Positions 62,202 through 63,398 of a stretch of 64,000 nt of DNA are shown piece by piece. Position 1 is the first letter of the stretch. Each line of letters starts with the position of its first letter. Where the stretch lies: NCBI RefSeq assembly GCF_021474405.1, contig NZ_JAKEIO010000003.1, positions 62,001 to 126,000 on the forward strand, in the 5' to 3' direction. This DNA is from [Streptosporangium] indianense. Lineage in GTDB: Bacteria; Actinomycetota; Actinomycetes; Streptomycetales; Streptomycetaceae. Made by a program: the position numbers and the translations under genes. The notes under the pieces are model-generated. The model was not told where the DNA came from and searched no databases. It was given only the letters and a program-made list of their open reading frames with translations.

Positions 62202-63398
62202 TCAGACGCAGCCGTCGACGTGGATGTTCTGGCCGGTGACGTAGCCGGCGTGGTCGCTGACGAGGAACAGCACGGCCTGGGCGACGTCGTCGACGGTGCC
62301 GAGCCGGCCGAGCGCGGTGAAGGAGGCGAAGGTGGCACGCTGCCGCTCGGCCTCCTCGGCGGGCAGTTCGTCGAGCGCCTCGGTGGCGATGCGGCCGGGC
62401 GAGACGGTGTTGACGCGGATGCCGCGCGGTCCGAGCTCCCGGGCCAGTGAGCGGGTCATGCCGACCAGGGCGGACTTGACGGCGGTGTAGTGGACGCCGC
62501 CGGTCATGCCGATGAAGGCGACCGTGGAGCCGATGTTGATCACCGACGAGCCGGCCGGCAGCAGCGGCAGGGCGCGCCGGGTGACCAGGTGGGTGGCGGT
62601 CAGGTTGCCCTGGAGGGTGGCGGCCCACTCGGCGGGTGAGAGGTCGGCGTAGGGCTGGGGGCGGAACGTGCCGGCGTTGTTGACGACGGCGTCCAGTCCG
62701 CCGAGGCTCGCCTCGCACGCCGTGACCAGCCGGTCCACGTCCGTCTCGTCGGCGGCGTCGGCCCGCAGCACCTGGTGCTTGCCGGGGGTGCCGGCGAGCT
62801 CCTCCTCCAGGGAGGCGACGGCGTCGCCGGGGGTGCGGTAGCAGGTGACGACGTCGGCCCCGGCCCGGGCCGCGGCGAGGACGATGCCCCGGCCGATGCC
62901 GCGGCTGCCGCCGGTCACCAGGACGCGTTTGCCCTGGAGTTGGCGGCCGGCGCGGGCGGCGCTCTCCACCTTGGCCTTGATCAGCCGCATCTGGACGGCG
63001 GTGTTGCGGTTGAGCCGGGCGGTCATCCCGGCGTCGTCGATCGGGGCGTCGGGCTTCATCGCGAAGTCCTGGATCCAGCGCATCCGTACGCCGCCGGGCA
63101 CCTCCTCGTACTCCCAGCGGATGTTCATGTACGCGAAGGGGCCGGTCTCGACGCGGCGGGCCTCGACGGTGCGGGTGGCGGCGTCGGGGGTGCGTTCGGA
63201 GACCCAGCTCCAGACCTTGCCGTTCTCGTCGGGGTGCAGGGCGAGGCGGAAGGTGACGGTGTCGCCGTCCCGGCCGAGGATCTCGGCGGAGGCGTACTCG
63301 CTGAACAGCCGCGGCCAGGCGGCGACGTCGTTGGTCATCGTCCACACCAGGTCCATCGGTGCGTCGACGACGATCGCGTTGTCGGTGTGTCCTGCCAT
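62202..63398 (-). CDS. Polyketide cyclase/aromatase fused to ketoreductase
   Basis: 398 aa. Residues 1-145 are an SRPBCC/START-type polyketide cyclase ([40 protein letters not shown]). Residues 155-398 are an SDR reductase with [33 protein letters not shown] and YTAVK. Both active sites look complete. It should fold/aromatise the first ring and reduce a ketone of the nascent chain. Its ATG overlaps the ACP stop by one base (TGATG). Confidence 0.9.

Follow-up and report, generated by a model that had tools for sequence, protein, structure and literature searches.

The window, i.e. the whole stretch of 64,000 nucleotides of [Streptosporangium] indianense DNA that was analysed, carries a row of type II PKS genes on its minus strand (Table 1). 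One of them encodes a single protein in which an aromatase/cyclase is followed by an SDR ketoreductase, hereafter KRf, and the next gene encodes a stand-alone ketoreductase, KR2, which is 53% identical to KRf. The fusion frame begins with an ATG at 63398 that overlaps the TGA of the acyl carrier protein (ACP) gene (TGATG), and it reaches its stop at 62202-62204 with 0 internal stops; the plus-strand reading of the same interval is broken by stops. Pfam assigned Polyketide_cyc to residues 11-123 and adh_short_C2 to residues 166-396, and sequence matches in the PDB cover WhiE-ORFVI/TcmN over residues 1-151 and ARX21 (5thq) over residues 154-397. Upstream, past the window, lie genes for KS-alpha, a cupin, a TcmI-like cyclase, a SARP regulator, an asparagine-synthetase-like protein and an FAD monooxygenase. 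The first-pass annotation, which gave no strand, had described a cyclase and a ketoreductase encoded as one protein in a type II PKS cluster, with a second, stand-alone reductase following; the uninterrupted frame, the ACP and ketosynthase beta genes in the window with KS-alpha beyond it, and the separate SDR gene bear out this description.

Table 1. Features of the window, in order of position.
Feature	Coordinates	Strand	Remarks
tRNA-Pro(cgg)	52559-52633	+	
Phage-type integrase (PF00589)	52711-53793	-	adjoins the tRNA gene
Tandem array	55722-55807		27-base period, 3.2 copies
POT-family transporter	57052..58554	-	same place in S. poonensis
Methyltransf_19 (DUF574) protein	58561..59394	-	same place in S. 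poonensis
Cytochrome P450, RubU-type	59423..60694	-	80% to hyaluromycin Orf1-735
Second ABM-family protein, GrhV/RubT-type	60697..61098	-	
ABM-family monooxygenase, GrhU/RubH-type	61095..61421	-	
Stand-alone ketoreductase KR2, GrhO10/RubG orthologue	61423..62172	-	249 aa; GTG start after GGAGG
Cyclase-ketoreductase fusion, GrhT/RubF/Orf1-739 orthologue	62202..63398	-	398 aa
SDR ketoreductase domain KRf, ARX21 clade	62202..62939	-	aa 154-398 of the fusion
Aromatase/cyclase domain, WhiE-ORFVI/TcmN type	62940..63398	-	aa 1-153 of the fusion
Acyl carrier protein	63398..63661	-	
Ketosynthase beta / chain length factor, C-terminal part	63751..64000	-	remainder beyond the window, same contig

Homologues of the hyaluromycin genes Orf1-735 and Orf1-738 to -758 (those tested), as well as of RubK, were found in the same genome with 54-85% identity. 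The assembly splits the cluster between the GrhO9 homologue at the end of contig C3, which holds the homologues from GrhO9 through the P450, and the GrhO8 homologue at the start of contig C77 (loci L009 and L128), where homologues of GrhO8, GrhL, GrhO7, GrhO6, GrhR3, GrhO5, RubK, GrhJ, GrhO2 and GrhO1 are present. Genes of the hyaluromycin C5N kind gave no match on the cluster stretches of C3 and C77 examined. The GrhO8 gene of this genome appeared at one point to be broken, which was rejected, the reported stop being the gene's own terminus. The fusion gene sits between those of the ACP and of the GrhO10/RubG orthologue, in a cluster with homologues of grhO1, grhO5 and grhO6. By its gene content, the cluster belongs to the rubromycin/griseorhodin family of type II PKS (pentangular, spiroketal-forming), and the window contains one end of it; the suggestion in the first-pass annotation of a comparison with pentangular polyphenol clusters was well aimed. 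Odd as it looked, the fusion in fact marks clusters of the rubromycin family and is recognised as such; it identifies this genome as carrying one.

The fusion kind is already on record, and the window protein adds a GrhT/RubF-type example. Table 5 of the hyaluromycin report lists Orf1-739, of 398 aa, as 'cyclase/reductase' with identity/similarity of 67/78% to GrhT and 78/85% to RubF, and, after it, Orf1-738 as a ketoreductase homologous to GrhO10 and RubG (PMC5765640). The corresponding S. hyaluromycini gene is a full-length orthologue with 77% identity over 398 aa to the window fusion. Because gene sizes (398, 87, 534, 540, 501, 161, 417 aa and so on), order and C5N genes match that Table 5, the S. 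hyaluromycini locus is the hyaluromycin cluster, and a second, non-hyaluromycin cluster carrying the fusion in that organism, considered because PMC7933358 cites a different contig, was dropped on the same match. The contig is NZ_BCFL01000018 according to PMC7933358 and NZ_BCFL01000016.1 in the record used here (L018/L103/L104). The window protein, an ARO/CYC then an SDR in a single polypeptide of about 398 aa, has the same architecture, length, gene order and cluster content as Orf1-739, and it differs from GrhT, RubF and Orf1-739 by sequence divergence only, GrhT and RubF being compared via Orf1-739 and the published identities. Type II PKS enzymes are, as a rule, separate polypeptides of one or two domains (PMC12664062), in agreement with what the first-pass annotation had said of these two domains. 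The novelty that it saw in their union is lost, since the same fusion is the GrhT/RubF/Orf1-739 protein of the rubromycin family (PMC5765640); occurrence in known clusters, which it had itself named as evidence against its reading, is largely what was found. In the literature searched, only PMC5765640 names GrhT/RubF in a cyclase/reductase context, a search under other names gave no further described cyclase-ketoreductase didomain, and neither an experiment or assay on GrhT/RubF nor a reaction of KRf was found, although earlier work may exist.

The same uninterrupted fusion is present in 22 distinct genomes with 68–100% identity, and the alignment of the 22 distinct fusions has a mean column identity of 88%. 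With each GTDB species represented by one genome, 77 loci were returned, and the full fusion is present in 12 Streptomyces genomes among them. In a Streptomycetaceae sample (395 genomes) the fusion occurs in 12 and an unfused orthologue of its reductase half in 4, and in a class-wide sample (also 395 genomes) the fusion occurs in 4, all of them Streptomyces. The window shares the gene order ACP, fusion, ketoreductase, ABM, P450 with 12 further Streptomyces genomes. The dN/dS ratios (Nei-Gojobori, window gene against nine orthologues) range from 0.19 to 0.48 in the cyclase half and from 0.16 to 0.73 in the reductase half, i.e. below 1 in both halves in all comparisons, and in 8 of the 9 pairs the value for KRf exceeds that for the cyclase half. 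Chance or sequencing error is ruled out because the fusion is intact in 22 genomes and both halves have dN/dS below 1. The fusion is neither an artefact nor unique, and a stop or frameshift between the domains, the other finding that the first-pass annotation had set against itself, occurs in none of the 22 genomes. An internal start in the linker, from which a separate reductase would be made, was also ruled out: Val144 is encoded by GTG in 15 of the 22 fusions and the position by GTC, ATC or CTC in the rest. With a conserved internal start absent from the linker, the gene is predicted to yield a single translation product.

An AlphaFold2 model of the single chain, built on the 22-row alignment (mean pLDDT 82.5, pTM 0.68), presents a helix-grip domain that ends in a helix of residues 125-153, then a Rossmann domain. 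In the model, a junction of 4 residues separates this helix, which ends at 153, from the first strand of the SDR, which begins at 158; the junction is longer by four residues in three genomes of the 22-fusion alignment. The relative placement of the two domains is uncertain at this pTM. The top Foldseek matches of the model are WhiE/TcmN for the cyclase half and ARX21 for the reductase half, and among the matches listed no PDB chain covers both halves, the highest query-normalised TM being 0.55. The N-terminal 151 residues are 60-68% identical to WhiE-ORFVI and TcmN (PDB 3tl1, 2rer), with the fold retained. The equivalent of TcmN Arg69, the loss of which abolishes C9-C14 cyclisation in TcmN (PMC12664062), is invariant in 22 of 22 fusions. 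WhiE-ORFVI is free-standing and TcmN is a cyclase-methyltransferase, whereas the partner of the window cyclase is a ketoreductase. In the reductase half of the fusions, the catalytic Asn, Tyr and Lys of the SDR are present in 22/22; the Ser is present in 21 and replaced by Thr in the remaining one. From these residues, both domains appear catalytically complete, as the first-pass annotation had supposed.

The two reductases were compared with ARX21, whose catalytic residues are S144, Y157 and K161 and whose substrate-binding residues are R154 and Y210 (PMC9215129). The C-terminal 244 residues of the window protein resemble ARX21 (PDB 5thq; BenL/PdmG class, unfused as crystallised) in fold and in the catalytic Ser, Tyr and Lys, but Arg154 is replaced by Gly and Tyr210 by Phe. 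In the numbering of the window protein, these replacements are Gly301 and Phe357, and the catalytic Tyr is Tyr304. These replacements are general: at the Arg154 position, Gly is found in all 26 KRf sequences, the window included, and Arg in all 26 KR2 sequences, while at the Tyr210 position Phe is found in 25 of 26 KRf, the window protein included, and Tyr in 26 of 26 KR2. The catalytic Asn, Tyr and Lys do not vary among the same 26 KRf sequences, 25 of which also retain the Ser. The named ARX21 residues are retained in GrhO10, HyalO10 and RubG, and GrhO10 acts in vitro on a late intermediate, whose C6 ketone it reduces (PMC9215129). KR2 is also the better ARX21 match (305 bits vs 232 bits for KRf). 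In the tree, KR2 (100/99) and KRf (100/100, stem 0.69) each form one clade, and both group with ARX21 among the pentangular ketoreductases; within KRf, the fused sequences form one clade (98/94) and four unfused ones an adjoining clade (99/97). The fork uniting KRf with KR2 is weakly supported (51/2), and therefore a duplication within the rubromycin lineage versus an earlier one is not settled. By its place in the tree and its Ser144, Tyr157 and Lys161 equivalents, KRf belongs with the ARX21/BenL-type C-19 (C-6) ketoreductases, whereas both substrate-binding residues of that class are lost, which is what the present analysis adds to the record. Considering that both are kept in the stand-alone KR2 of the same ARX21 group, KRf is probably a paralogue that has diverged and acts on another substrate. 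On the simplest reading of these sequences, KR2 would be the canonical copy and KRf an additional, diverged one, the opposite of what "a second reductase follows" had led one to guess. The rubromycin family presents two ketoreductases of this one group, of which KRf is fused to a cyclase and devoid of the known substrate-binding residues; other pentangular clusters have, as a rule, one such ketoreductase (PMC4383371).

Four genomes of another genus carry KRf unfused, with no cyclase beside it. At the three of these loci looked at closely, the order is a GrhO1-like oxidase, KRf and KR2, in a subcluster without nearby PKS genes. The N-terminus of about 20 aa of the unfused KRf was considered as a cyclase remnant; it bears no resemblance to one, so a fission is unsupported. 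In the unfused-KRf genomes (L099-L102), KR2 has Asn118 changed to His and Ser144 to Ala in 4/4, and KRf is intact; judging from these residues, the two reductases may have exchanged roles there, or KR2 may be lost. One of the four genomes, G123 (91% complete), has only a spore-pigment-like KS-alpha at the cut-off used. In genome G087 (L108, L112-L114), a rubromycin-like tailoring subcluster was observed with KR2, KRf, GrhO1/O2/J/R3/O7-like, RubK-like and RubU-like P450 genes; GrhO5, GrhO6 and PKS genes are absent from it, and the nearest pentangular-type KS-alpha lies about 117 kb from the KRf subcluster. At other pentangular loci (L063, L110), cyclase and ketoreductase are separate.

Starting from the domain architecture, conservation, orthology, cluster identity and the loss of the two ARX21 substrate residues, we propose a GrhT/RubF-type bifunctional enzyme, with an active, diverged KRf, a single fusion event and a modest coupling, an explanation that we consider highly probable as a whole. 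The N-terminal WhiE/TcmN-type domain would take the ACP-bound C26 poly-beta-ketone and form its first aromatic ring or rings, of the C9-C14 type. KRf would be active as an NAD(P)H ketoreductase, having arisen through duplication of an ARX21-type pentangular reductase and diverged towards another ketone or intermediate than the stand-alone GrhO10 orthologue, presumed to make the late C6 reduction. The fusion would have formed once, between neighbouring genes, and in the one product the short junction would hold the two active sites close. In the simplest reading of the sequences, the events would be a duplication, the divergence of KRf and one fusion to the adjoining cyclase gene. Any channelling benefit would be modest and not obligatory. 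More specifically, KRf might be a neofunctionalised paralogue for a rubromycin-specific ketoreduction, to which the covalent link hands the intermediate of the first-ring cyclase directly; we hold this only tentatively, as a doubtful possibility. If this is true, GrhT/RubF would represent a type of natural enzyme that still awaits biochemical description, one with two steps, folding and reduction. Against the proposed explanation, any reduction without an assigned enzyme could instead be the work of GrhO2 (an SDR) or of GrhO10.

The stronger coupling put forward in the first-pass annotation, in which the fusion ties first-ring cyclisation to immediate ketoreduction of the ACP-bound chain, so that reduction before or during folding sets the skeleton, is in our opinion unlikely. 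The conservation of the fusion in 22 genomes and its very short junction are in line with it, collinone is, according to PMC7933358, preceded by a regioselective ketoreduction, and the loss of the ARX21-type substrate residues would be compatible with an early substrate; the same loss also weakens the idea in its original form. Moreover, KRf groups with ARX21, and that second class of reductases acts after cyclisation and release from the ACP (PMC12664062). Four genomes have KRf unfused next to KR2, beside the GrhO1-like oxidase and with no adjoining cyclase, and therefore coupling to first-ring folding is not obligatory; the sole spore-pigment-like KS-alpha of G123 also speaks against it.

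The roles of the two reductases could also be the converse of those proposed, KRf performing the ancestral BenL/PdmG-type pentangular ketoreduction and GrhO10 (KR2) having been recruited for the late C6 step. The presence of two ketoreductases where one is the rule, together with the demonstrated late role of GrhO10, would fit such a scheme, which is nevertheless rather doubtful, as it is KR2, not KRf, that retains the two substrate-binding residues and lies nearer to ARX21. The absence of these residues from KRf could even mean that its reductase activity itself is lost. KRf would then be a degenerate, non-reducing passenger that merely aids oligomerisation or folding of the cyclase, in keeping with its dN/dS, greater than that of the cyclase half in most pairs. 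This is very unlikely given the near-complete conservation of the catalytic residues, dN/dS below 1 throughout and an intact KRf, apart from any cyclase, in the four genomes whose adjoining KR2 lost the catalytic Ser and Asn.

This type of cyclase was also observed in two further fusions, namely cyclase-ABM (261 aa; L080:11153-11938, minus strand) and cyclase-cupin (280 aa; L111:4399-5241, minus strand). Thus, fusion of this cyclase type to its neighbours is recurrent and need not imply substrate channelling.

The tRNA-Pro(cgg) gene and the adjoining phage-type integrase gene, which lie a few kb off the cluster's lower end, form a possible integration site. The tandem array is located between the integrase gene and the cluster, where coding is uncertain.
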